From JBFLXN01 sp040755715 [NCBI: Candidatus Edwardsbacteria bacterium] (GTDB taxonomy: Bacteria; Edwardsbacteria; AC1; JBFLXN01): DNA of 13,234 nt. The notes below the pieces were generated by a model. The model was not told where the DNA came from. It did no database searches and worked only from the letters and a program-made list of their open reading frames with translations. Shown here one piece after another: positions 1 to 13,234 of this stretch (the stretch's first letter is position 1; the number at the start of each line of letters is the position of its first letter). The DNA lies in contig JBFLXN010000068.1 of the NCBI GenBank assembly GCA_040755715.1, positions 1-13,234 of the forward strand, given 5' to 3'. A program made the translations under genes and the position numbers.

Positions 1-2687
1 GCAACGACGAATGGCGGATAGCAAATAGCGAACGGCAAACGGCGAGCGGCGAATTTCTCATTGATACGAGTGTTGTTTATGTCCCTGCGGCTGGTTACCA
101 AAGGTCTCCTTCAGTTGCCTTTGACGGGACAAACTATTTGGTCGTATGGCAAGATTATCGCAGCGGTTTTTCTTCTGACATTTATGGTGCGCGGGTGAAT
201 CAATCCGGCACGGTTTTAGACACTTCAGGGATTGCCATCTCCACTGCTGCTAGTTCCCAATATTATCCTTCAGTTGCCTTTGATGGCACAAACTATCTGG
301 TCGTATGGCAAGATTATCGCGGTTCTTCCTGGGACATTTATGGTGCGCGGGTGAATCAATCCGGCACGGTTTTGGACTCTTCAGGGATTGCCATCTCTCT
401 TGCTGCTAGTTCCCAATCTTATCCTTCGGTTGCCTTTGATGGCACAAACTATCTGGTCGTATGGGGAGATTATCGCGGTTCTTCCTGGGACATTTATGGT
501 GCGCGGGTGAATCAATCCGGCACGGTTTTAGACACTTCAGGGATTGCCATCTCTCTTGCTGCTAGTTCCCAATCTTATCCTTCGGTTGCCTTTGATAGCA
601 CAAACTATCTGGTCGTATGGCAAGATTCTCGCAGCGGTTTTTCTTCTGACATTTATGGTGCGCGGGTGAATCAATCCGGCACGGTTTTAGACACTTCAGG
701 GATTGCCATCTCTACTGCGGCTGATGACCAATATTTTCCTTCAGTTGCCTTTGACGGGATAAACTATTTAGTGGTCTGGGACGACTATCGCAGCGGTTCT
801 TCTTCTGACATTTATGGTGCGCGGGTCTCTCAATCCGTCACGGTTTTGGACACTTCAGGGATTGCCATCTCTCTTGCGGCTGATGACCAATATTCTCCTT
901 CAGTTGCCTTTGACGGGATAAACTATTTAGTGGTCTGGGACGACTATCGCAGCGGTTTTTCTTATGACATTTATGGTGCGCGGGTGAATCAATCCGGCAC
1001 GGTTTTGGACTCTTCAGGGATTGCCATCTCTCTTGCGGCTGATTGGCAATATTTTCCTTCAGTTGCCTTTGATGGCACAAACTATCTGGTCGTATGGCAA
1101 GATTATCGCGGTACTTCTTCTGACATTTATGGTGCGCGGGTGAATCAATCCGGCACGGTTTTGGACACTTCAGGGATTGCCATCTCCACTGCGGCTGATT
1201 ACCAAAGGTTTCCTTCAGTTGCCTTTGATGGGACAAACTATCTGGTCGTATGGGGAGATTATCGCGGTTCTTCTTATGACATTTATGGTGCGCGGGTGAA
1301 TCAATCCGGCACGGTTTTAGACCCTTCAGGGATTGCCATCTCTCTTGCTGCTAGTGACCAATGGTCTCCTTCAGTTGCCTTTGATGGCACAAACTATCTG
1401 GTCGTATGGGGAGATTATCGCAGCGGTACTTCTTATGACATTTATGGTGCGCGGGTGAATCAATCCGGCACGGTTTTGGACACTTCAGGGATTGCCATCT
1501 CTCTTGCGGCTGATGAGCAATATTATCCTTCAGTTGCCTTTGATGGGACAAACTATCTGGTCGTATGGCAAGATTCTCGCAGCGGTACTTCTTCTGACAT
1601 TTATGGTGCGCGGGTGAATCAATCCGGCACGGTTTTAGACACTTCAGGGATTGCCATCTCCACTGCGGCTGATTGGCAATATTTTCCTTCAGTTGCCTTT
1701 GATGGCACAAACTATCTGGTCGTATGGCAAGATTATCGCAGCGGTACTTCTTCTGACATTTATGGTGCGCGGGTGAATCAATCCGGCACGGTTTTAGACA
1801 CTTCAGGGATTGCCATCTTTCTTGCGGCTGATGACCAATATTCTCCTTCAGTTGCCTTTGATGGGACAAACTATCTGGTCGTATGGTACGATTATCGCAG
1901 CGGTTCTTCCTGGGACATTTATGGTGCGCGGGTGAATCAATCCGGCACGGTTTTAGACACTTCAGGGATTGCCATCTCCACTGCGGCTCATTCCCAATAT
2001 TCTCCTTCAGTTGCCTTTGATGGGACAAACTATCTGGTCGTATGGCAAGATTATCGCAGCTATTATTCTTCTGACATTTATGGGGCCAGGGTAAATCAGT
2101 CAGGCGCAGTGATTGATTCTTTTGCGGTTTCTCTACAATCAGGAAACCAGATTTCACCAGCATTAGCACCCGGGTTGGCCGGGCAAATGCTCATTACCTA
2201 TTCAGGTTGGACTGATTCCATCAATGGCAAACCAGCCAATACCATGCGTATCTGGGGCAAGCTTTATCCGTTTACAGGCGTGGAAGAGACTTCAGTTCAT
2301 AGTTCAAAGTTCGTAGTTCATAGTAAGTTGTATCAGAATGCACCGAATCCATTTAGCAAGGCTACGGAGATAAGGTATCAGATTCCGGATTGTGGAAGAT
2401 TACACACCCCCTGCCCCCTCTCAAGAGGGATTATGCGGAATGCGGATAGCGGAAAGCGGTCAGCGGTTAGTTTGAAGATTTACAACATTGCCGGACAATT
2501 GGTGAAGACGCTTGTCAACGAACTAACCTCTCCCTCTGTCCCTCTCCCAGTGGGAGAGGGAAGGGTGAGGTCGGTGGTATGGGACGGTAGAGATGAAAGT
2601 GGAAAGTGTGTAGCCTCCGGCGTGTATTTCTATCGCCTGCAGTCAGGGGATTTTACGGATACAAAGAAGATGATTTTGGTGAGATAG
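1..2687 (+). CDS. Secreted repeat protein with C-terminal sorting domain (5' end outside window)
   Basis: The frame is open from the first bases (first full codon at 3), so the gene begins upstream; the 894 residues seen are its C-terminal part. Residues about 1-18 are coded by 7-bp tandem repeats. Residues about 36-713 are 13 near-identical units of 52-53 residues with the core PSVAFDGTNYLVVW and DIYGARVNQSGTVLD, probably beta-rich, propeller-like blades (inference). Residues 775-894 form a FlgD-like/type IX-type sorting domain: KLYQNAPNPF, then IRYQIP, VSLKIYNIAGQLVKTL, VVWDGRDESG, ASGVYFYRL and KKMILVR. This suggests export across the outer membrane and attachment at the cell surface. The sorting domain carries two in-frame insertions (nt 2391-2465 and 2526-2571) made of dispersed DNA repeats. 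The gene is followed by a strong terminator. The ligand is unknown; adhesion or recognition is a guess. Confidence 0.85.
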   Translation, partial: NDEWRIANSERQTASGEFLIDTSVVYVPAAGYQRSPSVAFDGTNYLVVWQDYRSGFSSDIYGARVNQSGTVLDTSGIAISTAASSQYYPSVAFDGTNYLVVWQDYRGSSWDIYGARVNQSGTVLDSSGIAISLAASSQSYPSVAFDGTNYLVVWGDYRGSSWDIYGARVNQSGTVLDTSGIAISLAASSQSYPSVAFDSTNYLVVWQDSRSGFSSDIYGARVNQSGTVLDTSGIAISTAADDQYFPSVAFDGINYLVVWDDYRSGSSSDIYGARVSQSVTVLDTSGIAISLAADDQYSPSVAFDGINYLVVWDDYRSGFSYDIYGARVNQSGTVLDSSGIAISLAADWQYFPSVAFDGTNYLVVWQDYRGTSSDIYGARVNQSGTVLDTSGIAISTAADYQRFPSVAFDGTNYLVVWGDYRGSSYDIYGARVNQSGTVLDPSGIAISLAASDQWSPSVAFDGTNYLVVWGDYRSGTSYDIYGARVNQSGTVLDTSGIAISLAADEQYYPSVAFDGTNYLVVWQDSRSGTSSDIYGARVNQSGTVLDTSGIAISTAADWQYFPSVAFDGTNYLVVWQDYRSGTSSDIYGARVNQSGTVLDTSGIAIFLAADDQYSPSVAFDGTNYLVVWYDYRSGSSWDIYGARVNQSGTVLDTSGIAISTAAHSQYSPSVAFDGTNYLVVWQDYRSYYSSDIYGARVNQSGAVIDSFAVSLQSGNQISPALAPGLAGQMLITYSGWTDSINGKPANTMRIWGKLYPFTGVEETSVHSSKFVVHSKLYQNAPNPFSKATEIRYQIPDCGRLHTPCPLSRGIMRNADSGKRSAVSLKIYNIAGQLVKTLVNELTSPSVPLPVGEGRVRSVVWDGRDESGKCVASGVYFYRLQSGDFTDTKKMILVR
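14..55 (+). repeat. 7-bp tandem repeat tract 1 (GCGRAYR-like, 6 units)
   Basis: Six consecutive heptamers: GCGGATA, GCAAATA, GCGAACG, GCAAACG, GCGAGCG, GCGAATT. All begin GC and vary mainly at the last three bases. The tract lies in the open frame of the surface-protein gene and codes a low-complexity segment (RIANSERQTASGEF) immediately before the repeat domain. A tract of the same heptamer family occurs at 2435-2469. Confidence 0.85.
108..2140 (+). repeat. Intragenic array of 13 tandem 156/159-bp repeats
   Basis: The GAC codon of the DIYGARV motif recurs at 177, 333, 489, 648, 807, 966, 1122, 1278, 1437, 1596, 1755, 1914 and 2073, so spacings are only 156 or 159 bp and always keep frame. 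A half unit precedes the first full copy. The stretch coding DIYGARVNQSGTVLDTSGIAIS is nearly identical at DNA level in most copies, a sign of recent duplication or gene conversion. Unit 5 (SQSVTVLD) and unit 13 (NQSGAVIDSFAVS) diverge most, unit 13 being the terminal capping copy. Variation concentrates in two short patches, just after VVW and just before PSVAF. Confidence 0.95.
2294..2328 (+). repeat. 7-bp tandem repeat tract 2 (AGTTCAT-like, 5 units)
   Basis: Heptamers AGTTCAT, AGTTCAA, AGTTCGT, AGTTCAT and the degenerate AGTAAGT run head to tail inside the surface-protein gene. They code SVHSSKFVVHSK, the linker just before the sorting domain. The unit differs from the GCGG-type heptamer but the period is the same. 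Confidence 0.8.
2402..2429 (+). repeat. C-rich palindromic repeat, intragenic copy
   Basis: A 28-bp stretch beginning ACACACCCCCT and ending in a small hairpin (CCCTCT-CA-AGAGGG). It matches 2978-3005 at 27 of 28 positions (G instead of A at position 12). Here it sits in the sorting domain, between the strands coding IRYQIPD and VSLKIYN, and is read as HTPCPLSRG. Together with the adjacent heptamer tract it makes a 75-nt, frame-preserving insertion (2391-2465). Confidence 0.8.
2435..2469 (+). repeat. 7-bp tandem repeat tract 3 (GCGGNNN, 5 units)
   Basis: Five heptamers GCGGAAT, GCGGATA, GCGGAAA, GCGGTCA, GCGGTTA, of the same family as the tract at 14-55 (GCGGATA is shared exactly). Read in the sorting-domain frame as RNADSGKRSAVS, it completes the first insertion in this domain. 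Confidence 0.85.
2526..2571 (+). repeat. 46-bp palindromic element, intragenic copy
   Basis: Imperfect palindrome: outer arms ACCTCTCCCT and AGGGTGAGGT (9 of 10 pair) around an inner 9-10-bp stem of CCCTCTCCC and GGGAGAGGG. It is identical to 9838-9883 except for one base (G versus A at position 13). It adds about 15-16 residues (TSPSVPLPVGEGRVR) between VKTLVNEL and VVWDGRDESG of the sorting domain, where family members normally have a short loop. The frame is intact. Confidence 0.9.
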
Positions 2688-2689
2688 CG

Positions 2690-2708
2690 GTCCCGATTCT
2701 ATCGGGAC
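2690..2708. repeat. Short REP-like hairpin after the surface-protein gene
   Basis: GTCCCGAT-TCT-ATCGGGAC, an 8-bp stem three bases after the stop codon. It belongs loosely to the CCCCGAT/ATCGGGG hairpin type found at 10408, 13069 and 13177. There is no T-run behind it, so it is not itself a terminator. Confidence 0.6.
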
Positions 2709-2740
2709 GGCATTTGGTCCGACGAATACAGAAAACCCGT

Positions 2741-2777
2741 CCCGCACCCCGCCATTGGTGGGGTGCGGGATTTTTTT
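2741..2777 (+). terminator. Rho-independent terminator of the surface-protein gene
   Basis: The 13-bp stem CCCGCACCCCGCC / GGTGGGGTGCGGG (one G-T pair) has an ATT loop, one A and then seven Ts. It lies 54 bases after the stop codon and is the strongest terminator in the window. It separates the surface-protein gene from the macroglobulin gene. Confidence 0.9.
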
Positions 2778-2942
2778 CTTGCTTTTTTTTCGTATTCTTG
2801 CTATACTGAAAATTAACTTAAACTTTGGCAAAAATTGCTTTTGTCCGCATTTTGATTATTTGCGGGAACTTCTCCATCTGGTGATTAGAAAATAGAACAA
2901 AGTTCTCAAGGTCATAACCTCTTGGAACTCAACCCGTTTCAT

Positions 2943-2967
2943 CCCCTTCTCTTTGTAAGAGAAGGGG
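2943..2967. repeat. Perfect 11-bp hairpin
   Basis: CCCCTTCTCTT-TGT-AAGAGAAGGGG. An additional pair CATCCCC (2940-2946) and GGGGATG (2971-2977) allows an alternative longer fold. It lies inside the MITE-like segment and has no T-run. Confidence 0.75.
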
Positions 2968-2977
2968 AGAGGGGATG

Positions 2978-3005
2978 ACACACCCCCTACCCCCTCTCAA
3001 GAGGG
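2978..3005 (+). repeat. C-rich palindromic repeat, intergenic copy
   Basis: Matches the intragenic copy at 2402-2429 at 27 of 28 positions and continues into GGGATGAG. The hairpin is CCCCTCT-CA-AGAGGGG. It shows that the stretch in the sorting domain is a dispersed element rather than native coding sequence. Confidence 0.8.
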
Positions 3006-3040
3006 GATGAGTTAGACTCTAACCCAAATTTGCCAAAGTT

Positions 3041-3069
3041 TTGTTAGTAAGATAACAGTGACCTAATCT
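3041..3069 (+). promoter_or_regulatory. Candidate sigma-70-type promoter for the macroglobulin gene
   Basis: TTGTTA (3041-3046) and TAATCT (3064-3069) with a 17-base spacer, 46 bases before the start codon. The -35 box begins at the last base of the right inverted repeat of the MITE-like segment, so the element may have supplied part of the promoter. The match is by consensus only. Confidence 0.35.
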
Positions 3070-3105
3070 AGACAAAAACATTAACCAATAACAAATATAT
3101 TACAC

Positions 3106-3112
3106 AAGGAGG
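3106..3112 (+). promoter_or_regulatory. Ribosome binding site of the macroglobulin gene
   Basis: AAGGAGG lies 3 bases before ATG 3116 and 6 bases before ATG 3119. The second ATG has the more usual spacing and may be the true start, costing one residue. Confidence 0.8.
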
Positions 3113-3115
3113 AAG

Positions 3116-6100
3116 ATGATGAAAAGAATAGCTGAGATTCTGCGTGGGCCATATTTTATTACTCTTCTGATGGTCCTTATCTTCGGCTCGTTCCTCAAAT
3201 TCAATACCTGGAGTTTTTCGGTAAAACTCCTGCAGAGCTTTTACAGCCATTGGTGGATTTTCATATTTGGACTAGCATTACTCATTACGCTTATTCGGAA
3301 ATTTGTTTTGAGAACAGAGGCAAGGTTCTTTACCGTTCTACTGACCTTTTTTGTCTCAGACCTGGTGTTCTTTCAATCTAAGTTGTTTTTTGTTCGTGCT
3401 AAACCCACTCTGTATTTTGTTATGGTTTATCTATTTGCAGCATCGTTTTATACCGGAATCTGTCTCGGTGCGTTAAAGCAATGGTTCAGAATAATCGTGG
3501 AAAAGTTGAAACAGGTTAGTCTTCTTAGAAGACCGCTGATTCGATTTCTTATTTATCTACTTTTTGGGGGAATCCTATTTGGGCTCTTTATTCTTGTGAG
3601 TGCCGCTTCCACCGACAAATATATTCTCATATTTTTGCTGGCGCTCTTATTTATCGCCTCGGTCTTTTTTGATATATTAATCAGATTGTTGATAAAACTT
3701 TCTGATAGATTAAAAATAGGTTACCTGAGAAAACCTTTATTTCTACTTTTTATTTACTTGATCTCTCTGGCCGCTCTGGTGGTTATCCTTAAGCCCAAGG
3801 TTTCAGGTCTAATAACCGAGTTTTATAATCGGTATTGGATGCCGATAGTCTTATTGTCGCCGGTAATTGTAATGTTGTTTAAAAAGGTAAAGAAGAATAA
3901 AAAGGAGAATTACTTTACCGGGGTAATCGTTTATTTCTTTGGGTATGTGATATTCAGGCTGATTAACAGATGGTTGAAAAGTAATCTAGCCGAAAACCTT
4001 GCCGTGTCAGCGATACTTTATTTAGGCACCATCATTTATTTTTATTTTACGGAAATAGGAACGAACTTGAGTCAGATAATAGCAAAACTTCTTTTGGTAA
4101 TAAAAGAGAAAATTATTCCTAGGGTTGTTGGAACAAAAAACACCCTTGTCAGTGTGGCTTCAGCTGTTAGAACAAAATCGTCAAGTGTTGGACAAGTCAT
4201 TTTTCCAAAGATAATTGCTCATCGGGGCAAGATTATCATCTTCTTGGTTCTAATTGCGCTAGTGATTGCCGGTCTGAAAATAGCGTCTGTAGTCGCAAGG
4301 CAATTTTATGTCACGGTCATGGAATTTTCTCCGCAGGGAGAGGTGCCACCAAAAACTATCATCCGGTTGACATTTTCAAAACCAGTGAAGCTAACCGTTG
4401 ACGATATAAGTAAGTTAGACTGTTTTAACATAACACCACCAATAGAAGGAGAATATAGAATAGAAGGAGAGCGAACCATAGTATTTATTCCCAGGGAGGA
4501 ACTGAAACCATCAACTCTGTATCAGGTCAGACTGAATTCCAAGAACCTGAAATCATTCAAAAAGAAAATCACTTCCGGCGACAAAATTGAGTTTCATACA
4601 GAATTGTTTAAGGTTGCCGATGTCAGGATGTTCTATCTTTATGACCTGGCGAATAATGAAGAGAAGATGATAATGGGTGAAATAAATTTTAACTATCCGG
4701 TGGAGTTAGAAAGGCTAAAAGAAAAAGTGGAGGTTTTTTGTGAACTCAAGCCAGTAGAGATTGAATTTGAAAAATCGTATGTTCCAACCAGATTCTATTT
4801 TAAAACCGGCTTGGTGCAGAGGGCAAAAAAGAAACAAACCATCAGATTCATAGTTAGAAAAGACCTAGCCTGCATTAATGGCACGACTCCCTTAACCAGG
4901 GAGGTAGAGAGAATTCTTTCCCTGCCGGCCAAGATGAAATTTCAAGTTTCGCAAATTAAACTATGGCATGAGCCGGGAAATACTATGATAACTATTCTCT
5001 TTAATATGCCGGTCTCCAAGGAACAGGTTTCCAAGTTTGTCTCAATAAAGCCCCAAATTCCGGTTACCATTGAAACCGAGTATTGTTATGCAGTGCTGAG
5101 AGGTGATTTTAAACCTAATATTGAGTATAGTGTCACGGTTAATCAGGGGCTTTTATCAAAAAGTGGAGAGATACTGGAAGAAAAACGAGTTCAATCCATA
5201 GTGATAACCGACCTGCCGCCCAAGGTAGAATTTGCGCACAACGGCAGAATACTGCCTTTGGAAGGAGAAATGAATATAGCCGTTAAGACGATGAATCTGG
5301 ATAATGTTCAGGTCACTATCAGAAAGATATTCAGAAACAACCTGATTCAGTTCTTAAACAGTGGCGAGAGCCCAAATTATAACATCAGTTCTGAGGTATA
5401 TTCAGGGAGTTACACGGTAAAGGGGGGACAGATTAATGAAGAGCTTTTGCAATATATAAATTTAAGGAAGTTCCACCATGCTCCGTATAAAGGCTTATTT
5501 TCCGTAGAGCTTCAGGCAAGAGGTGTGAATAACAACAGTTATGAGAGAGATTATGGTGAAGAAGGCGAATACGAGGGAGAAGGTGAATATTACGGCTATA
5601 CAACACACGGCCAGACCAGAAGGTGGTTCTTATGCACCGAGATTGGTTTGATGGCCAAAAAATCCGGAGACGACCTCATCGTCTATGCCCTCTCACTAAA
5701 GGATTTGAGCCCTAAACCAAATACCAAAGTCAAATTGATTAGCCAATCTAACCAAGTTATTGATGAAGGATTAACCGGAGAAGATGGCAAAATCATTTTT
5801 ATAAACTGGGAGAAAAACAGTTTTGGATTTAACCCCTATGTGCTAGTGGCGGAGAAAGACGATGATTTTTCTTTCCTGAAATTTAATTCATCAATGCTCA
5901 ACCAACATCAGTTCCAAATCGGAGGCACACCTTATTCGGACAAAGGAATGGAAGCCTTCTTAAGTCCGGAAAGGGGAGTATATCGGCCGGGTGAGAAAGC
6001 CTATATCACCGCTATAGTCAGAAACAAAGATTTTTCTACCCCACCGGTTTTACCGGCCAGAATTATCGTCCAGGATCCTCAAGGTGGGGAATTCGCCCGG

Positions 6101-9100
6101 TTTGAAAAGAAATGGAACGACAATGGGATGATGTCTTTTGAGGTCAATTTTCCTACTCAGTCTTTAACCGGTGAATATCAGATAACTCTAGTGAGGATTG
6201 ACAAAGACGAAACCATCGGCCGCACCTCGGTTAAGGTGGAAGAATTTATTCCGGATAAGTTGAAGGTAGAAGTCGTCCCGGAAAGGGAGACCATGGAGGC
6301 TGGTAATTTGTTAGTCTTTTCAGTGATTGGCAAACAAATGTTTGGCCCTCCGGCTGCTGGGAATAAAGTGAATACAGTAGTTCAGTTTCTGCCGAGAATT
6401 TTTTCCCACCCCAATTTTGGGGAATATAAATTTTCTGATCCCTCCCGAAGCTTTGAAGAAGAGACCCAGCGGCTGGGTGAAGCAGTGTTGGACGCAACCG
6501 GCACTAAGAAATATGAGGTGGGAGTTCCCCGGTTAAAGCCGCCTTCAGCACTTCTTGCCTATATCTATGCTGAGGTCTATGATTCCGGCGGCCGGGCGGT
6601 GAGTGCGGTTACCACTGTTCCGATAAATAATTATCCCTATTATCTAGGGATAAAAGTGCAAAAGGAGCCTTTCTACAAAACTGGACAGGAAATAAAGATA
6701 GACTATGTAGCAATTAATTCTCAGGGCAAACTGCAGGACATCAAAAATGTTCAGCTTTTGGTGAAAAGAAAAATCTGGTATTCCATCTTCCGACAAGGTT
6801 CCTGGGGCAGGTCCGGTTTTCAATCCTCAACTTATGAAGAGGTGGTAATTCAGAAAGTGGTAAACATCAGAGGCAAAGGCGAATTTTCTTTTGTTCCAGA
6901 GATGGCCGGAGAATATTATATCTACTTAGGCAACGAAGATGGTATGCGCACCGGTATGGTGCTGAATGTGGTTGGGACAGGTTATCAGGCCTGGGGACTG
7001 GAATCTCCTGAGAAATTGGAAATCAGCCTGGATAAAAAGGTCTACGATGCTGGCGACAACGCGGTAATTAATATCAGGGCGCCGTTTACTGGAAAACTAT
7101 TTTTGAGTATAGAACGGGAGAAGGTTTATTATACCGAAATCGTAGAGCTCAAAGAAAAAACTGTCCAGATTAACATTCCGGTAAAATCAGAATATCTGCC
7201 AAATGTTTATGTAACCGGAATGTTAGTGAGACAGCCTGGTAATGGAAATGAAAATTTTCCTATGGTCTCTTTCGGCATTGTGCCTCTGGAAGTGAACAAA
7301 TCGCCCCAAAAAATTAGTATTACCCCTATTTGTAAAGATAAAGTAGATTCAAAAGATGGCATAGATGTGACGGTCAAACTAGACAATTTTGAGCCAAAAA
7401 CCAATGTAGTTCTGATAGCGGTGGACCAAGGAATTTTGCAGATAACCAATTTTCAAACGCCTGACCCCTTGCAATTCTTCTATCGCAAGAATTCCTTGAC
7501 CACCCAGACCTATTCTATTATGGATATGATATTGCCTGACATCAAAACAAAAATGTTTGCCGTCGGCGGCGATTATGGAGAATTTACCAGAAGGCACTTG
7601 AATCCAGTGGCGGCCAAACGGCCTAAATCCTTAGCTCAATACTCCGGAATATTAACTCCAGACCAAAACGGCGAGGTGAAATATCATTTCAATACCTCAA
7701 ACTTCAATGGAGAAGTGCGGGTAATGGCACTGGCAGTGTCCGGCGATAAATTCGGCTCCATTGCTAAACAAGTTACCGTAGTTGACCCAATAGTGCTGGT
7801 GCCCAACTTTCCGAGGTTCTTGGGTCCCGGCGATCAGTTTGAGATTCCAGTTCAGGTCTACAATAATACCGGAAAGTCAGGCAACTTTACTATCGCTATT
7901 GAAGCGAGCGGTCCGGTCGACCTTTCTGGAGATAAAGAAAAGAAAGTTTTCCTCCGGCACAAAGCCGAAAACAAATTGGTTTTTACTGCTCAGGCCCGAT
8001 ATGATGCTGGTGTGGCTAAGTTTAAAGTGATTGCCAGAGGTGTGGATAAAGAGGCTGTTAATCAAGCAGAGGTGAGCGTCAGACCTTATACTCATCTGGA
8101 ATCTACCGTCAAACTGGGAGAATTGAACTCTGAGCAATCAGTCAAAATCAACATTCCGGCAGGATTCATTCCTTACGGTCAGAGAATCCGTTTTACACTC
8201 TCTTCAAATCCTTTGATTCAATATCTACAAAGTCTGGAATATCTGATAACCTATCCTTATGGTTGCATAGAGCAAATCACTTCAAAGATTTTTCCATTGC
8301 TCTATTTTAAAGAACTAGGCTATGCTACCGGAATGTTTGCCGAAAAGGCCAATGCCGTGGACCTGTTCGTCCAGGAGGGCATAGGAAAAATAGAAGATAT
8401 GCAACTATCAGATGGCACTTTTGCCTTATGGCCTGGTGGGAGCTTTTGCGGAAGATGGCTTAATCTCTATGTCTGCCATTTTTTGATAGAAGCGCAAAAG
8501 ATGGGATATAAAATCAATCCGGAGATGATGAGTAAAGTCCTTTCCTATTTAAACAGTCTAAATGTTATCCCTCAGGCTCAAGGTCGCTTAGACCGCAGGA
8601 GCCAAAACCTCCCCAGGGAAATTGATGTCTACGCCTTATATGTCAAAACCCTGTCCGGCAGTCTAGACAAAGAACTAATGGCTTTCTTACTGCAAAACAA
8701 GTTGAATTCGTTAGGGGAAGTAGACCGGGCCTTACTTTCGTTATGTTATTCCGAAATAGGCGATAAGGCCACGGCCTTACGCGTCCTGAAGCCTGATTTC
8801 AAGAGTTTATTCCAGTACCGCGAGCAATACGGCTCATTTAATTCGCCTATTCGGAATACCGCTATGTATCTCTTGGCTTTGGCTTCTTCAGAGACCCCGA
8901 CTTCGGCCAAGATAAACGAGATCATTCGTTACCTGGGAGAAAATATGAGAGACGGCCATTTCGGGAATACGCAAGAAGACGCCTGGGTGTTTATTTCTTT
9001 GGGCAAGGCAGTTCAGGCTTTGGAGCATGGCATTAATGTTCAAATGAATGTTGATGAGAAACCTTACAAAACTATAACCGGCAAAACGGAGATTGTAAGC

Positions 9101-9646
9101 GATTCTCATCTTAGTGGGAAAAAAGTGGAACTGAAGAATATCTCGGATAAAAAATGCTATTACCACTTGATTGCTGAAGGCACCCCGCTGGAGAAACATC
9201 AGTCCAACAATTTTAACGGACTTGAAATCACCAGAAAATATTTAGATGAAAACGGAAAGCCTTTAAACCTTTCCAGCGTGGTTCAAGGACAGATGGTAAT
9301 AGCCACCATCAATGTTAAGTCGCAAAGAGAAGCAATTCATAATTTAGTGATTGTGGACCTCCTGCCGGCTGGGTTTGAGGTGGAGAATCCGAGACTGGCC
9401 TCCAGAGGAAATATTAGATTTCAGCCGGAAATCAGCCTGTATCCGATTTATCAGGATATCCGGGACGACAGGCTCTTGATATTTTTAGATCAGCTATCCG
9501 GTTCACAGAGTTTCTCTTATGTGTTAAGAGCAGTAACGCCGGGAAGGTTCACCATTCCCAATATTTACGGCGAGGCGATGTATGACCCGGATATCAAAGG
9601 GGAGGAATTTGAAAAGAATTATCTGGTGATTGTGCCGAGTAATTAG
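3116..9646 (+). CDS. Alpha-2-macroglobulin, YfhM type, with polytopic N-terminal membrane domain
   Basis: Bacterial alpha-2-macroglobulins trap attacking proteases: a bait region is cut and an internal thioester binds the protease covalently. Residues 1 to about 395 hold about eleven hydrophobic segments (near 11-28, 46-60, 70-93, 98-118, 142-163, 168-190, 205-225, 240-256, 265-285, 293-315, 371-392); an odd number would put the rest in the periplasm. Then come Ig-like MG domains (from 404, TFSKPVKL), VYRPGE at 955-960, an A2M_N_2-like part (about 1402-1456, VDQGILQITNF), a probable bait stretch near 1475-1515, the A2M core (about 1530-1574, FNGEVRVMALAVS, PRFLGPGD), thioester PYGCIEQ with Cys1717 and Gln1720, and a final domain ending MYDPDIKG. 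E. coli YfhM has about 1650 residues and is a lipoprotein; no lipobox is seen here. An acidic Glu/Gly/Tyr tract lies at about 808-830. pbpC follows, as in yfhM-pbpC loci. Confidence 0.9.
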   Translation: MMKRIAEILRGPYFITLLMVLIFGSFLKFNTWSFSVKLLQSFYSHWWIFIFGLALLITLIRKFVLRTEARFFTVLLTFFVSDLVFFQSKLFFVRAKPTLYFVMVYLFAASFYTGICLGALKQWFRIIVEKLKQVSLLRRPLIRFLIYLLFGGILFGLFILVSAASTDKYILIFLLALLFIASVFFDILIRLLIKLSDRLKIGYLRKPLFLLFIYLISLAALVVILKPKVSGLITEFYNRYWMPIVLLSPVIVMLFKKVKKNKKENYFTGVIVYFFGYVIFRLINRWLKSNLAENLAVSAILYLGTIIYFYFTEIGTNLSQIIAKLLLVIKEKIIPRVVGTKNTLVSVASAVRTKSSSVGQVIFPKIIAHRGKIIIFLVLIALVIAGLKIASVVARQFYVTVMEFSPQGEVPPKTIIRLTFSKPVKLTVDDISKLDCFNITPPIEGEYRIEGERTIVFIPREELKPSTLYQVRLNSKNLKSFKKKITSGDKIEFHTELFKVADVRMFYLYDLANNEEKMIMGEINFNYPVELERLKEKVEVFCELKPVEIEFEKSYVPTRFYFKTGLVQRAKKKQTIRFIVRKDLACINGTTPLTREVERILSLPAKMKFQVSQIKLWHEPGNTMITILFNMPVSKEQVSKFVSIKPQIPVTIETEYCYAVLRGDFKPNIEYSVTVNQGLLSKSGEILEEKRVQSIVITDLPPKVEFAHNGRILPLEGEMNIAVKTMNLDNVQVTIRKIFRNNLIQFLNSGESPNYNISSEVYSGSYTVKGGQINEELLQYINLRKFHHAPYKGLFSVELQARGVNNNSYERDYGEEGEYEGEGEYYGYTTHGQTRRWFLCTEIGLMAKKSGDDLIVYALSLKDLSPKPNTKVKLISQSNQVIDEGLTGEDGKIIFINWEKNSFGFNPYVLVAEKDDDFSFLKFNSSMLNQHQFQIGGTPYSDKGMEAFLSPERGVYRPGEKAYITAIVRNKDFSTPPVLPARIIVQDPQGGEFARFEKKWNDNGMMSFEVNFPTQSLTGEYQITLVRIDKDETIGRTSVKVEEFIPDKLKVEVVPERETMEAGNLLVFSVIGKQMFGPPAAGNKVNTVVQFLPRIFSHPNFGEYKFSDPSRSFEEETQRLGEAVLDATGTKKYEVGVPRLKPPSALLAYIYAEVYDSGGRAVSAVTTVPINNYPYYLGIKVQKEPFYKTGQEIKIDYVAINSQGKLQDIKNVQLLVKRKIWYSIFRQGSWGRSGFQSSTYEEVVIQKVVNIRGKGEFSFVPEMAGEYYIYLGNEDGMRTGMVLNVVGTGYQAWGLESPEKLEISLDKKVYDAGDNAVINIRAPFTGKLFLSIEREKVYYTEIVELKEKTVQINIPVKSEYLPNVYVTGMLVRQPGNGNENFPMVSFGIVPLEVNKSPQKISITPICKDKVDSKDGIDVTVKLDNFEPKTNVVLIAVDQGILQITNFQTPDPLQFFYRKNSLTTQTYSIMDMILPDIKTKMFAVGGDYGEFTRRHLNPVAAKRPKSLAQYSGILTPDQNGEVKYHFNTSNFNGEVRVMALAVSGDKFGSIAKQVTVVDPIVLVPNFPRFLGPGDQFEIPVQVYNNTGKSGNFTIAIEASGPVDLSGDKEKKVFLRHKAENKLVFTAQARYDAGVAKFKVIARGVDKEAVNQAEVSVRPYTHLESTVKLGELNSEQSVKINIPAGFIPYGQRIRFTLSSNPLIQYLQSLEYLITYPYGCIEQITSKIFPLLYFKELGYATGMFAEKANAVDLFVQEGIGKIEDMQLSDGTFALWPGGSFCGRWLNLYVCHFLIEAQKMGYKINPEMMSKVLSYLNSLNVIPQAQGRLDRRSQNLPREIDVYALYVKTLSGSLDKELMAFLLQNKLNSLGEVDRALLSLCYSEIGDKATALRVLKPDFKSLFQYREQYGSFNSPIRNTAMYLLALASSETPTSAKINEIIRYLGENMRDGHFGNTQEDAWVFISLGKAVQALEHGINVQMNVDEKPYKTITGKTEIVSDSHLSGKKVELKNISDKKCYYHLIAEGTPLEKHQSNNFNGLEITRKYLDENGKPLNLSSVVQGQMVIATINVKSQREAIHNLVIVDLLPAGFEVENPRLASRGNIRFQPEISLYPIYQDIRDDRLLIFLDQLSGSQSFSYVLRAVTPGRFTIPNIYGEAMYDPDIKGEEFEKNYLVIVPSN

Positions 9647-9810
9647 TTCTTCCTGAAAAACCCTATCTTCTAGCACAAACAGCACAGAAAATTCAATTCA
9701 AAATTAGCAGTGCAAAGCTATCATTTTAAAATGGTAATTACTAATTTTACATTTTGCAATGAAGTTGTGTCCTGCATTAAGGAACAATAGGCAGGAGAAG
9801 GGACGAAATT
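9647..9810. other. Intergenic spacer with AT-rich inverted repeats
   Basis: No gene is seen. AAAATTAG (9700-9707) and CTAATTTT (9741-9748) flank the 12-bp palindrome CATTTTAAAATG (9722-9733), so the segment can fold. TCCTGC/GCAGGA makes a further short pairing near 9770-9796. No convincing terminator closes the macroglobulin gene. Confidence 0.5.
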
Positions 9811-9821
9811 AATCTCTAGCC

Positions 9822-9837
9822 CAGCCGTTCACGGCTG
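9822..9837. repeat. Left-end hairpin of the tnpA unit
   Basis: CAGCCGT-TC-ACGGCTG, a 7-bp stem preceded by CTAG-CC. It abuts the 46-bp palindrome without a gap and resembles the hairpin at 9888-9901 in its CGTTYACG centre. Confidence 0.75.
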
Positions 9838-9883
9838 ACCTCTCCCTCTATCCCTCTCCCAGTGGGAGAGGGAAGGGTGAGGT
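9838..9883 (+). repeat. 46-bp palindromic element, intergenic copy
   Basis: Same element and orientation as 2526-2571, 45 of 46 bases identical. Outer arms ACCTCTCCCT/AGGGTGAGGT enclose the CCCTCTCCC/GGGAGAGGG stem. It lies between two hairpins at the left end of the tnpA unit. Confidence 0.9.
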
Positions 9884-9884
9884 G

Positions 9885-9901
9885 GTAGGGCGTTTACGCC
9901 C
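9885..9901 (+). repeat. GTAG-led REP-like hairpin
   Basis: GTAG (9885-9888) is followed by GGGCGT-TT-ACGCCC (9888-9901). In enterobacterial REP sequences a GTAG or GGAG tetranucleotide stands 5' of the hairpin and is recognised by the RAYT transposase; the same layout is seen here 30 bases upstream of tnpA. Confidence 0.6.
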
Positions 9902-9930
9902 TTATAAAGACAGAAATTGTTATTTTTGAT

Positions 9931-10362
9931 ATGTCTCATACCTATCATAAAGTTTGGATTCATCTAATCTGGACTACAAAAGAGAGATTTCCATATCTTA
10001 ACAAAGAGATTAAAAACGATGTCATCTTTCATATCAAAGAAAAAGGTGGTAATGAAGGAATTCATGTTGATACCATCAATGGTGTAGCAGAATATATCCA
10101 TTGTTTGATAGAATTGGATGTAAAACAAAATATTTCCAATGTGGCTAACCAACTTAAAGGCGAATCATCTCATTGGATTAACCAGCAAAAATTGACGAAA
10201 TCTCATTTTGCCTGGCAGGAAGGCTATAGTGCTTTTTCCATAGGGGAATCGCAGGTAACAAAGGTAAGAGAATATATTCGCCATCAAGAAGAACATCATC
10301 AGAAGATGAGCTTTCAAGAGGAAATGAATAGATTTTTAAAAGCTTACAATTTGAATTCCTAA
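9931..10362 (+). CDS. tnpA: IS200/IS605-type TnpA (Y1 transposase), altered HUH motif
   Basis: 143 residues, the usual length of a single-domain Y1 transposase, which cuts and joins single-stranded DNA at hairpins. Family signs: the opening HTYHKVWIHLIWTTKER, KGESSHWIN (about 73-81), FAWQEGYSAFSI, and the C-terminal REYIRHQEEHH with the presumed nucleophile Tyr115. The metal-binding HUH motif, normally DHxHC in close relatives, reads E54-Y55-I56-H57-C58: the first His is Tyr (TAT, one base from CAT). The frame is otherwise intact. No clear ribosome binding site precedes the ATG. The protein is probably impaired or inactive, unless Tyr is tolerated in this lineage. No tnpB is present. Confidence 0.85.
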   Translation: MSHTYHKVWIHLIWTTKERFPYLNKEIKNDVIFHIKEKGGNEGIHVDTINGVAEYIHCLIELDVKQNISNVANQLKGESSHWINQQKLTKSHFAWQEGYSAFSIGESQVTKVREYIRHQEEHHQKMSFQEEMNRFLKAYNLNS

Positions 10363-10379
10363 AGGCCATGAATGGCCTT
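10362..10379. repeat. Hairpin overlapping the tnpA stop codon
   Basis: AAGGCCAT-GA-ATGGCCTT, a perfect 8-bp stem starting at the last base of the TAA stop. A second stem AACAATA/TATTGTT (10382-10405) follows. Together they may act as transposition end structures or slow transcription. Confidence 0.7.
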
Positions 10380-10407
10380 AAAACAATATTCATCGCTTTA
10401 TTGTTCT

Positions 10408-10423
10408 CCCCGATAAATCGGGG
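10408..10423. repeat. Right-end REP-like hairpin of the tnpA unit
   Basis: CCCCGAT-AA-ATCGGGG, immediately followed by the right inverted repeat GGGCTAGAGATT (sharing G10423). On the minus strand it reads CTAG then CCCCCCGAT and its complement, the same layout as the palindromes at 13069 and 13177. Confidence 0.75.
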
Positions 10424-10523
10424 GGCTAGAGATTTTTATCCACTTGATCGGGAGAAGACCCGAAATGAATAAGCGACACAGAATAATTCTGGCCATCTTG
10501 CAGTATCCGAATTTCAATAATTA

Positions 10524-10620
10524 CCACGAATTAACACGAATAGACATAAAATCTCCCTTTCTCCGTTTTTTAGAGAGAATGGGGAGGATTCCACTAGTGT
10601 TCATTCGTGTGCATTCGTGG
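10524..10620. repeat. 97-bp inverted repeat over the pbpC start region
   Basis: Arms CCACGAATTAACACGAAT (10524-10541) and ATTCGTGTGCATTCGTGG (10603-10620) pair at 16 of 18 positions. Inside, ATCTCCCTTTCTC (10551-10563) can pair, with bulges, with GAGAGAATGGGGAGGAT (10573-10589). The fold would cover the ribosome binding site, and the right arm begins just after the GTG start. It could be an inserted repeat or an RNA control element. Confidence 0.75.
10581..10588 (+). promoter_or_regulatory. Ribosome binding site favouring the GTG 10597 start of pbpC
   Basis: GGGGAGGA stands 8 bases before GTG 10597, an ideal spacing. The alternative ATG at 10465 has only GGGAGA (10449-10454) 10 bases upstream, and ATG 10579 has GAGAGA directly adjacent, which is too close. 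Confidence 0.6.
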
Positions 10621-12960
10621 TTTATCTTAGTCCTAGCCCTTGGGTGGCTGGGGTATCATATCTTGATGTCTCTCTCACTGCTCGTCTTTCCGCTTCCGAT
10701 GGATGTCTTGGAGCAAGGCTATTCTACAGTCCATCTGGCCAGCAATGAAGAACTTCTAAGAATATCTTTGTCGCCCTCAGGAAAATACCGAATAAAGTTA
10801 AGACTTGAAGATTTTTCAGAGTATCTTAGTAAAGGATTTATTATCTACGAAGATAATTATTTTTATTATCACCCGGGGGTTAATCCGTTTGCCCTCATCC
10901 GAGCCTTGGTGACAAATATCCGGAAGGGAAAGATAGTTTCCGGCGGGTCTACCATCACTATGCAGGTTGCCAAACTGATGGAACCGAAGGAACGAACAGC
11001 AAAATCAAAAATAATTGAAATATTCAGAGCCTTGCAGTTAGAGGAGAAATATTCCAAAAAAGAGATTTTGGAAATCTACCTGAATCTTGTCCCTATGGGC
11101 GGTAATATTGAAGGCACAGGAGCAGCCGCTTATCTCTATTTTGGCAAGCCGGCAAAATATCTATCTTTAGCCGAAAGTGCTTTGCTGATTGGCCTCCCCA
11201 AATCACCTAATCGGTATAGGCCGGATAGAGCTGTTGAAAGGGCTGAAAAACAACGCAACCTGGTGCTGAATAAAATCGCCACCAAGCTTAAGGTGCAGAC
11301 AGAATTAGTCCAGACAGCAAAGAATTTGAAAATTCCCCAGCAGAGATTTAAAAATAGTTATGAAACACCGTCATTGATTGTCCGCACGCAAGCTATAGGC
11401 CCCAAGTTCGTCAAAAGATATTCAATAGACATGGCGTTACAAAGATATTGCGAGCAGTCGCTGGCAAAGGCGGTTGATAAATTCAAAATCAACGGCTGTC
11501 ACAATGGAGCCGTCATAGTTTTAGACAACCATACTATGGAAGTTCTGGTCTATGTGGGATCGGTGAATTTCTATGATTCTATTTATGGTGGACAAATAAA
11601 CTGCGCCAATATCAAACGCTCGCCCGGTTCTCTGCTTAAACCGTTTTTGTATGCGGTGGGGATGGAAAGGGGATTGGTCACGCCCAAGAAAATATTGTTT
11701 GATATTGAAAGAAACTATCAGGGATATAATCCCATCAACTTCAATCGGAAATTTTTGGGCCCGGTTACGGCAGAAGATGCTCTCATAGGTTCTATGAATG
11801 TGCCGGCGGTAAATTTAGAATATGAATTGGGCAAGGATGGATTGTCTTCCTTCATTAGGGAAACGCATCTTAGCGATGAGAAAAGAATAAAGATTGACGC
11901 TGGGCTTTCCTTGGTTTTGGGCGCTTACCCGATGACCTTGGAAGAATTGGTTAAATTATATGCCTGCCTAGCTAACGGGGGAAAATTGAGGGAGATAAGG
12001 TTTTTTAAAGATGACTGTGGTAGAAATGAAGGTTTTTCTGTGCTTACCCCCGAGGCTTGTTTTATCATTACTACTATGCTTTCAGAAATAGAGCGTCCAG
12101 ACCTTCCTCAATGCTGGGAATTCACCAATAATCGTGGCAGAATCGCCTTTAAAACCGGAACCTCGTTTGGACTAAGAGATGCCTGGTGCATTGGATATAA
12201 CCCCGATTACACCGTCGGCGTCTGGGTTGGCAATGTTGATTGCAAGGGCTCCGATGTTCTGGTGGGAATAAAGGCCGCCGCTCCTATTACCGTAGATATC
12301 TTAAATCATCTCACCCGATATAAAGATTCCTGGTTTAAAAGGCCGGACAAGGTTCAACAAAGAGAAGTTTGTGCGATAAGTGGAGAGGTAGCCGGTCCTT
12401 ATTGCCACAGAACAGTGTGGGATTATTACATCCCCGGCATCAGCAGCAATAAAATATGTGCGGTACATAAGCAAATACATCTCAGAAAATCAGACGGACT
12501 GGAAGTCTGCCGTTTCTGCATGAACCAAAGCGCGGACAAGTATTATTCAAAAGTGGTAGAGGTTTGGCCACCGGAGGTGGCTAATTATCTAAGGGCTTCA
12601 GGCAGAAAAATAGAAAAAATCCCCAGACATAATCCTGAATGCAATACTATAAACATCTGTGGCGGGTTAAAGATAAAGAGTCCACTTTCTGGTGGATACT
12701 ATGCCTTAAACGAAAGACTTGATAGCCAGGAACAGAAGATTTTACTACAAGCAGAAAGCGATACTGATTGCGAGCCGATTTACTGGTTTCTGGATGATAA
12801 GTTCATTTATCAGGGTTCACCAGACCAAACATTTTATATTAAGCCAGTCCCTGGAGAACACACTGTTACGATAATAGACTCAAGGGGCAGAAATGAAGAG
12901 GTGACATTTGTAGTTCATAAAAGATTGTTCCCAAACATAAATGCCTGGACTACGGATTAA
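10597..12960 (+). CDS. pbpC: Penicillin-binding protein 1C (bifunctional glycosyltransferase/transpeptidase)
   Basis: PBP1C polymerises lipid II and has a transpeptidase domain; it is anchored in the inner membrane facing the periplasm. With GTG 10597 it has 787 residues (E. coli about 770), a membrane segment at about 7-30 and then FPLP, which lines up with the E. coli N-terminus. The frame is open further upstream (ATG 10579, ATG 10465, TTG 10444; up to 838 aa), but the extra 51 residues are partly coded by an inverted repeat. GT51 motifs: E85-D86 with H92 (EDNYFYYHPG), GGSTITMQ (116-123), EILEIYLN. Transpeptidase motifs: S345-L-L-K348, S399-M-N401, K519-T-G. A Cys-rich linker (from C592) and the PBP1C-specific C-terminal domain (about 689-780) complete it. 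All catalytic motifs are intact. It pairs functionally with the macroglobulin upstream. Confidence 0.93.
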   Translation: MFIRVHSWFILVLALGWLGYHILMSLSLLVFPLPMDVLEQGYSTVHLASNEELLRISLSPSGKYRIKLRLEDFSEYLSKGFIIYEDNYFYYHPGVNPFALIRALVTNIRKGKIVSGGSTITMQVAKLMEPKERTAKSKIIEIFRALQLEEKYSKKEILEIYLNLVPMGGNIEGTGAAAYLYFGKPAKYLSLAESALLIGLPKSPNRYRPDRAVERAEKQRNLVLNKIATKLKVQTELVQTAKNLKIPQQRFKNSYETPSLIVRTQAIGPKFVKRYSIDMALQRYCEQSLAKAVDKFKINGCHNGAVIVLDNHTMEVLVYVGSVNFYDSIYGGQINCANIKRSPGSLLKPFLYAVGMERGLVTPKKILFDIERNYQGYNPINFNRKFLGPVTAEDALIGSMNVPAVNLEYELGKDGLSSFIRETHLSDEKRIKIDAGLSLVLGAYPMTLEELVKLYACLANGGKLREIRFFKDDCGRNEGFSVLTPEACFIITTMLSEIERPDLPQCWEFTNNRGRIAFKTGTSFGLRDAWCIGYNPDYTVGVWVGNVDCKGSDVLVGIKAAAPITVDILNHLTRYKDSWFKRPDKVQQREVCAISGEVAGPYCHRTVWDYYIPGISSNKICAVHKQIHLRKSDGLEVCRFCMNQSADKYYSKVVEVWPPEVANYLRASGRKIEKIPRHNPECNTINICGGLKIKSPLSGGYYALNERLDSQEQKILLQAESDTDCEPIYWFLDDKFIYQGSPDQTFYIKPVPGEHTVTIIDSRGRNEEVTFVVHKRLFPNINAWTTD

Positions 12961-13034
12961 ATTTTGTGACTCCTATTGGGTACTATATATGGGTCCCTAG
13001 TGCTATGTCGCATTAATTTTTGACAGGATGAGGC

Positions 13035-13063
13035 CTTTATTTTTAGGAAATAAGTTGTTTTTT
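13035..13063 (+). terminator. Possible weak AT-rich terminator after pbpC
   Basis: CTTTATTT (13035-13042) and AAATAAG (13048-13054) can pair with one bulged T around loop TTAGG, followed by TTGTTTTTT. The stem is AT-only apart from one pair, so termination may be leaky. It lies 75 bases after the pbpC stop. Confidence 0.4.
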
Positions 13064-13068
13064 AATAG

Positions 13069-13088
13069 CCCCGACCTTTAGGTCGGGG
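13069..13088 (+). repeat. REP-like palindrome, ATAG-led
   Basis: CCCCGACCT-TT-AGGTCGGGG, a perfect 9-bp stem preceded by ATAG (13065-13068). It pairs in opposite orientation with the GTAG-led copy at 13177-13200. Confidence 0.8.
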
Positions 13089-13099
13089 TTGAAAGAGAC

Positions 13100-13166
13100 C
13101 CACTCCCCCCCTGTTTCCCCCTCTCCCCGACAAAGTCGGGGAGAGGGGGACAGAAGGGGGTGAGGG
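13100..13166. repeat. Large G/C-rich palindrome with nested REP-like core
   Basis: The inner stem CCCCCTCTCCCCGAC (13117-13131) and GTCGGGGAGAGGGGG (13135-13149) gives 15 perfect pairs around an AAA loop. Outer arms (CACTCCCCCCC-CTGT and ACAG-AAGGGGGTGAG) add imperfect pairing. The outer part resembles the arms of the 46-bp element (…CCCTCTCCC, AAGGGTGAGG), while the core CCCCGAC/GTCGGGG resembles the neighbouring REP-like palindromes. Confidence 0.8.
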
Positions 13167-13176
13167 TTTTAGTTTT

Positions 13177-13200
13177 CCCCGACATAAATGTCGGGGCTAC
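13177..13200 (-). repeat. REP-like palindrome, GTAG-led on the minus strand
   Basis: CCCCGACAT-AA-ATGTCGGGG followed by CTAC; on the minus strand this is GTAG directly before a 9-bp hairpin. It is homologous to the reverse of 13069-13088, giving a BIME-like pair of inverted REPs. A bare TTGACA at 13229-13234 could be a -35 box for a gene outside the window, but the -10 region is not visible. Confidence 0.75.
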
Positions 13201-13234
13201 TCATATTTCGACATTAGGTCTTTTTTTCTTGACA

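Follow-up and report, generated by a model that had tools for sequence, protein, structure and literature searches.

A translated 46-bp palindrome in a sorting-domain gene of Candidatus Edwardsbacteria resembles palindromes found beside DUF559 genes

Repetitive extragenic palindromes (REPs) are sorted by their GTAG and CGTC tags, and those located inside genes include RPE-4 and RPE-6 of Rickettsia, according to passages of PMC3733652. The domain DUF559 is placed in the EDxHD homing family in part of PMC9403480, and is characterized in part of PMC12907096 as a Vsr-like PD-(D/E)XK nuclease that drives the SOS response in Caulobacter cells devoid of a cytosine methyltransferase; segments carrying a transposase together with DUF559 are reported as recombination hotspots in part of PMC12308824. 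The subject here is a 46-bp palindrome that occurs twice in a 13,234-nt stretch of DNA from a Candidatus Edwardsbacteria genome (assembly GCA_040755715.1, contig JBFLXN010000068.1, positions 1–13,234 of the forward strand; the whole stretch is referred to as the window), once translated within the gene of a protein with a C-terminal sorting domain (copy 1) and once in non-coding DNA (copy 2). Copy 1 is probably a lone, non-autonomous and translated REP-like member of a palindrome family associated with DUF559, in which palindrome and nuclease would form one mobile unit.

Copy 1 (2526–2571, plus strand) and copy 2 (9838–9883, plus strand) differ by a single mismatch (45/46 identical), as the first-pass annotation of the window had it. 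With up to three mismatches allowed, the pattern of the element has two sites in the window, whereas 200 dinucleotide shuffles yielded none. Both copies fold into a hairpin, in which an inner stem of 10 bp (TCCCTCTCCC/GGGAGAGGGA) carries the loop AGT and is joined through a 3-nt bulge to an outer stem, with DNA folding energies of −18.7 kcal/mol for copy 1 and −18.6 kcal/mol for copy 2 (z = −6.0 and −5.3, respectively). The hairpin of copy 1, TCCCTCTCCC-AGT-GGGAGAGGGA, is followed by the tag AGGGTGAGGT; the tag AGGGTGAGG is present in both copies, and the architecture of the element combines a C-rich hairpin (CCCTCTCCC/GGGAGAGGG) with a G-rich tag (GGGTGAGG) after it. On the plus strand, frames 1 and 3 are open, i.e., two of the three rather than the one that had been counted earlier, and the minus strand has three of three open frames in copy 1 and two of three in copy 2. 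A scan of the window with Rfam gave no family at the gathering threshold. When the element was searched for in slightly degenerate form, the genome and viral contig collections contained no exact match, and neither did the viral contigs for a shorter form. Below, D3 is the working label of this 46-bp repeat and D4 that of a second palindromic repeat in the window.

The host gene is an 894-amino-acid (aa) open reading frame (ORF; 3–2687, plus strand) that is open at the left edge of the window and encodes a beta-propeller-repeat protein. Its C-terminal end matches FlgD_ig (27.9 bits; cut-off 27) and the NCBIfam model Por_Secre_tail (28.6 bits; cut-off 23), and these profile matches, together with an alignment, delimit a FlgD-like or type 9 secretion system (T9SS) type A-like sorting domain (2331–2684, plus strand) that contains both copy 1 and D4. 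The domain was searched for in 61 genomes of a single phylum and was matched in all 61; 30 loci were fetched, which yielded 34 aligned stretches, and the 30 rows that cover the loop of interest were kept, whereas four that end before it were dropped. The alignment bears out the placement of copy 1 between the two conserved strands LVNE and VVWDG. The LVNE–VVWDG loop is of uniform length in the 30 homologous rows, whereas that of the window is longer by nine residues (+27 nt). Copy 1, which comprises 15 codons plus 1 nt and is translated as TSPSVPLPVGEGRVR (+1 nt), is missing from all 30 loop-spanning homologues, so that no homologous domain with the same residues, which would have spoken against an insertion, was seen; an in-frame palindrome absent from homologues of its host protein is what would be expected of an element of the Rickettsia palindromic element (RPE) type. 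The proposal that a dispersed palindrome was inserted into a gene and is still translated is supported, and the analogy drawn with RPEs is a fair one as regards behavior. Contrary to what had been supposed, the insertion is not clean: because 46 nt result in a net gain of just 27 nt over the homologous domains, about 19 nt of the ancestral loop have been lost. Rickettsiales would not be expected to have sorting domains of this kind. A single-sequence AlphaFold model of the domain had a mean pLDDT of 50.5 and was set aside.

A second loop of the sorting domain, located before VSLKIY, is far longer than in the homologues, although one of these (L093) is partly extended there too. This loop contains D4 in frame (2398–2429, plus strand; 94% identical to a non-coding copy at 2974–3005, plus strand) and adjoining in-frame heptad repeats (GCGGNNN; 2435–2469, plus strand). 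The D4 hairpin is weak on its own (z = −1.2).

Looser searches recovered the hairpin-GGGTGAGG architecture in 3 of 82 genomes in one case and in two others in 3 of 199 and 9 of 82, for which a control with the reversed pattern gave 0 in the listed genomes. The architecture is shared by unrelated phyla; several genomes have one or a few copies, whereas one 7.3-Mb genome (G182) has 170 of the tagged palindrome. Similar DNA is found in 16 plasmid records (E ≤ 0.1), with coverage of the query reaching at least 80% in six, and in 9 of 5,426 Escherichia coli genomes (seven over at least 80%), which partly represent the same plasmids; in five records that were opened, the location is intergenic in all four that are annotated, the fifth (Azospirillum) being unannotated. 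Further copies beyond the two of the window, as anticipated for a dispersed element, thus exist as related sequences in other genomes, but none is identical. Among 34 copies in 20 stretches of G182, there are six inverted pairs with starts 42 nt apart, and just one copy lies inside an ORF of at least 150 aa, at the very start of that ORF. Since almost all of these copies are outside such ORFs, the palindrome acts in this genome as an extragenic REP. The copies of G182 (L155, L156, L161, L168, L170, L171), which include inverted pairs surrounding a TAGCTA-type spacer, make up a REPIN-like population.

In another genome (G148), exactly two exact copies of the palindrome are present, and these are inverted and bracket its only DUF559 match (named by Pfam), which is why DUF559 loci were surveyed. 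The sample consists of 89 loci from three phyla (30 of 67 listed matches, all 29 listed, and 30 of a longer list), the second and third sets at E ≤ 1e-20, with loci chosen by score and not by their flanks. A C-rich palindrome occurs within 250 nt of DUF559 in 77 of the 89 loci (27/30, 24/29 and 26/30 by phylum), and the 168 sites in 43.3 kb of such flanks correspond to 3.88/kb, versus 0.31/kb elsewhere in the loci (about 12-fold). Moreover, a repeat common to the upstream and downstream flanks (direct or inverted, score at least 36) is present in 60 of the 83 loci with enough flank. At the same score, control pairs of equal spacing elsewhere in the DUF559 loci gave 0 direct and 2 inverted repeats in 284, and mismatched flank pairs gave 45 direct and 45 inverted in 1,500; the corresponding flank-repeat control in loci of other genes gave 2 in 296. 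Long flanking repeats, with scores of 203 to 287, occur at seven DUF559 loci (L217, L254, L192, L242, L240, L193, L184), six direct and one inverted, and exceed a single palindrome in length.

The window element, with its C-rich hairpin and G-rich tag, resembles the palindromes beside DUF559 genes. D3 matches the flanks at a score of at least 34 in 18 of 89 DUF559 loci and in 0 of 80 loci of Y1_Tnp transposase genes (Fisher, 4e-6), and in 3 of 164 stretches located 500–1000 nt from DUF559. The corresponding figures for D4 are 7/89, 0/80 and 1/164, and its best match among DUF559 flanks (L190) has a score of 53. DUF559 itself has 16 invariant columns among 11 sequences, and its profile matches the PDB entries 3hrl (7e-34) and 3r3p (4e-6); the latter is entitled ‘Mobile intron protein’, and we take it to be I-Bth0305I.

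Thirteen of the 89 loci have DUF559 within an ORF of at least 700 aa; by the measure used, a palindrome is present upstream in 12 of them, on both sides in eight and on neither side in one (L233). The hosts of 12 of these 13 in-frame cassettes, scanned with Pfam, are LeuRS (L233, L235, L257), MetH (L246, L251) and genes that include those of restriction–modification (R-M) systems: DUF1156 and Eco57I methyltransferases (L172, L176), HsdR (L236, L238), HsdM (L243) and two other methyltransferase-type genes (L231, L232). In cassettes such as those of L246 and L257, the reading frame runs through the palindrome at either border. The frame is open throughout, and Pfam listed no intein domain in two (E ≤ 0.001) plus ten (E ≤ 1e-5) ORFs with in-frame DUF559. 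MetH has a strong match in 33 of 41 genomes, with the source included in the count, and is usually free of the cassette; the stretch between the anchors is 199 and 187 aa long in the occupied genes, versus 46 aa in all five of the 24 other loci that have matching anchors. Part of the MetH linker has apparently been replaced by the cassette, which would represent a loss of target as in the sorting domain.

LeuRS, which is matched in 130 of 148 genomes, provides three sites at which cassettes and lone palindromes can be compared, as read in 30 loci plus three earlier ones (three being of the same genomes), with many loci unmatched by the anchors and therefore uncounted. At site A, three genomes carry a cassette, and the LeuRS genes of L301, L302 and L296 have in-frame heptad-type repeats there. 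Site B is occupied by a cassette in two genomes (L257/L308 and L310) and by a lone palindrome in one (L235/L288); it spans 33 aa in the insert-free L306 and an intermediate 48 aa in L289, for which the length alone was read. At site C, lone palindromes are found in L233/L286 and L257 (65 and 63 aa), versus 49–51 aa in ten other matched loci. The lone inserts of LeuRS are CCTCCCC/GGGGAGG hairpins that have loops of 3–5 nt and bear a G-rich tag. In L257, the insertion at site C is nearly clean, which indicates that target loss is not universal. In other loci, 120 palindrome sites lie more than 300 nt from DUF559, and these give 31 site-frame rows in ORFs of at least 200 aa; some of the rows are overlapping or spurious frames, whereas others resemble methyltransferase genes and one a regulator gene (our naming). 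The setting of copy 1 and D4 is that of such palindromes within ORFs away from DUF559.

These observations can be accommodated by a scheme in which a small mobile cassette (palindrome–DUF559–palindrome) would have the palindromes as its ends or as sites that are recognized. DUF559 would act as the mover, cutting or nicking the target, and repair would copy the palindrome into the break; the source genome would then be expected to carry a DUF559 gene. Break repair of this kind may often lose some 20 to 30 nt of the target, and the loss of target, which amounts to about 19 nt in the window and has apparently occurred in MetH as well, would suit such repair better than a transposase that duplicates its target. 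Lone palindromes would be the miniature form of the palindrome–nuclease unit. Because several of their frames are open and encode turns rich in Ser, Pro and Gly, copies that keep the frame may be tolerated and translated in surface loops, as in the sorting domain.

The transposase gene of the window offers a different partner. tnpA (143 aa; 9931–10362, plus strand; Y1_Tnp, 89.3 bits) belongs to an IS200/IS605-type element, the left end of which (9820–9902, plus strand) comprises a hairpin (9820–9837), copy 2 and a second hairpin (9887–9902). Copy 2 had been annotated as lying beside tnpA, and it is indeed non-coding and upstream of this gene, but its actual position is inside the left end, since in the IS200-type relatives L001–L004 (our reading of these loci) the two hairpins are separated by an A-rich spacer at the corresponding position. 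Copy 2 seems to have displaced part of this spacer; the proteins of L001–L004 are only 51–55% identical to tnpA, and this detail of the left end is therefore weak. If the element were an ordinary REP or REPIN moved by a Y1 transposase, of the RAYT or IS200 type, such as tnpA, copy 1 would be an intragenic REP, of which examples are already described in passages of PMC3733652, and the position of copy 2 in the left end would be easily understood. In addition, Y1_Tnp genes are also found near C-rich palindromes (51 of 80 loci; 2.55/kb versus 0.11), and the 170-copy genome G182 has seven Y1_Tnp matches, six of them above the cut-off. However, the palindromes near Y1_Tnp (80 loci) belong to a different sequence type, and none of them is like D3 or D4 at a score of 34, whereas DUF559 flanks do resemble the element, which makes tnpA an unlikely partner. 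The complete hairpin is found at none of the seven Y1_Tnp loci of G182, two of which contain GGGTGAGG, and four genomes (G346, G177, G181, G148) have the palindrome without a Y1_Tnp match. The tnpA of the window is itself of the IS200 type (67.8 bits against the IS200 model; cut-off 55) and falls far below the cut-off of the RAYT model REP_Tyr_transpos (24.6 bits; cut-off 80), while copy 2 appears to sit in the spacer of its left end. Mobilization by a Y1 transposase is therefore considered unlikely, and tnpA was dropped as the leading candidate for the mobilizer on the contrast between 0 of 80 Y1_Tnp and 18 of 89 DUF559 loci with a resembling flank.

Membership of copy 1 in the DUF559-associated family is also compatible with a reversed order of events, in which the palindromes are older, enzyme-independent repeats that spread through template switching or through recombination, and are homed into by DUF559; the two accounts differ in what moves what. 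Several observations weigh against a palindrome–nuclease unit, and some of them suit this second account. The flanking palindromes could be homing targets of DUF559 rather than ends, and homing into palindromes accounts for much of the same data. The high copy number in G182 is reached without a visibly flanked DUF559: this genome has two DUF559 matches, and at the one examined (L196, near a contig end) none of the searched motif strings is present. G170, G177 and G180 likewise carry palindrome copies without a DUF559 match, and across 82 genomes DUF559 is present in 6 of 9 with the exact pattern and in 29 of 73 without it (Fisher, p = 0.16). No DUF559 is present in the window, 12 of the 89 DUF559 loci have no nearby palindrome by the measure used, and just eight of the 13 in-frame cassettes have palindromes on both sides, with one having them on neither. 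The lone palindromes of LeuRS are not independent of DUF559, since L233, L235 and L257 were found via DUF559 and each has a cassette at another site, and the control pairs and loci are partly non-independent. That heptad repeats of another type occupy LeuRS site A in the same way as DUF559 cassettes suggests that such loops may simply be permissive. The palindrome density at Y1_Tnp loci noted above, although the palindromes there are of other sequence, also weighs against the unit. On the other side stand G148, which has no exact copies other than the two flanking its single DUF559 match, and the palindromes translated at both borders of the cassettes in L246 and L257; the sharing of LeuRS site B by a lone palindrome and a cassette also argues for the unit, though homing predicts this too. 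Homing into pre-existing palindromes is thus a possible but doubtful explanation, better placed than a Y1 transposase, and a single palindrome–nuclease unit is preferred. Coincidence, with C-rich terminator hairpins emerging time and again and copy 1 duplicated from copy 2 by chance or recombination, would suit the simple C/G-rich composition and the often intergenic location of copies elsewhere, but it is disfavored, to the point of being very improbable, by the 45/46 identity, the absence of the pattern from the shuffles, the conserved tag with zero matches to the reversed pattern and the enrichment beside DUF559.

The window contains further repeats. A C-rich palindrome, detected by folding and flank comparison, is located in the intergenic region at 2942–2968, and a longer palindrome of similar architecture (I1; 13099–13166), which ends in GGGGGTGAGGG, lies downstream of pbpC in a region (13090–13200) with a folding z of −8.34. 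Within the host gene, a 159-bp tandem repeat (86–2105; 12.8 copies, 90% match) encodes the beta-propeller-like repeats, and runs of 7-bp units are in frame at 28–53 (GCGAACG), 2294–2324 (AGTTCAT, 4.4 copies, plus strand, before the sorting domain) and 2435–2469 (GCGGAAA). The IS200-type element splits a bacterial alpha-2-macroglobulin gene (3116–9646) from pbpC (PBP1C; 10444–12960), which are a common gene pair. PBP1C was matched in 11 of 13 genomes in one search and in 50 of 115 in another, with 38% identity for the match of highest score, and the region of the IS200-type element had no match among plasmids. At the 5′ end of the pbpC ORF, repeats of the AATTAACACG/GTGTGCATTC type are arranged in roughly inverted orientation (10519–10541 and 10597–10619), and the true start of pbpC may be further downstream.

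Translated palindromes are already known as a kind, and it is the link to DUF559 that, if confirmed, would be the real advance. Among the papers listed from an open literature collection, titles and the beginnings of abstracts revealed no link between DUF559 and flanking palindromes or repeats, although an earlier description elsewhere is possible, and the matches listed for the motif were unrelated by title. The chances are about even that DUF559 and GGGTGAGG-type palindromes constitute a class of mobile elements, spread over multiple phyla, that enters housekeeping genes such as those of LeuRS and MetH in frame and without splicing, leaves or seeds lone translated palindromes, and is REP-like except that a homing-type endonuclease replaces the Y1 transposase. 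Housekeeping enzymes would then bear mobile cassettes with the ORF intact, and caution is warranted in that some insertions and deletions in bacterial proteins would be mobile DNA rather than adaptive loops. For RPEs and CGTC-tagged REPs, which have spread into proteins without an obvious transposase, the DUF559 link points to a specific enzyme that can be tested in a related family.

The systems compared here share features with the window element, each in a different respect. Like IS200/IS605 and RAYT/REP systems, the DUF559 loci combine a single small enzyme gene flanked by hairpins with miniature, non-autonomous copies, but the enzyme is a PD-(D/E)XK-type nuclease instead of a Y1 HUH transposase, and the flanking hairpins differ in sequence. 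With EDxHD/Vsr-like homing endonucleases (3R3P), the likeness is in the nuclease family, which is related by the DUF559 profile match. The known members of this group are located in introns or inteins that splice out, whereas here nuclease and palindromes lie within an unbroken ORF, as read from the genes alone. GTAG/CGTC REPs (Di Nocera 2013) similarly consist of a hairpin with a short end tag, form inverted pairs, occur across phyla and are in some cases intragenic; the window element is set apart from them by its tag, GGGTGAGG, and by an associated gene that is DUF559 and not RAYT. It carries neither of their tags, as the GTAG just after copy 2 belongs to the left end of the insertion sequence and is missing at copy 1, and TGAGG does not occur in the main text of PMC3733652. 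With RPEs, finally, the element shares the behavior of a short palindromic repeat that enters genes of unrelated proteins in frame and is translated there; RPE-4 and RPE-6 correspond to repeats with a CGTC tag (PMC3733652), and by this description the window family, with its different tag and DUF559 as a candidate enzyme, stands apart from them.

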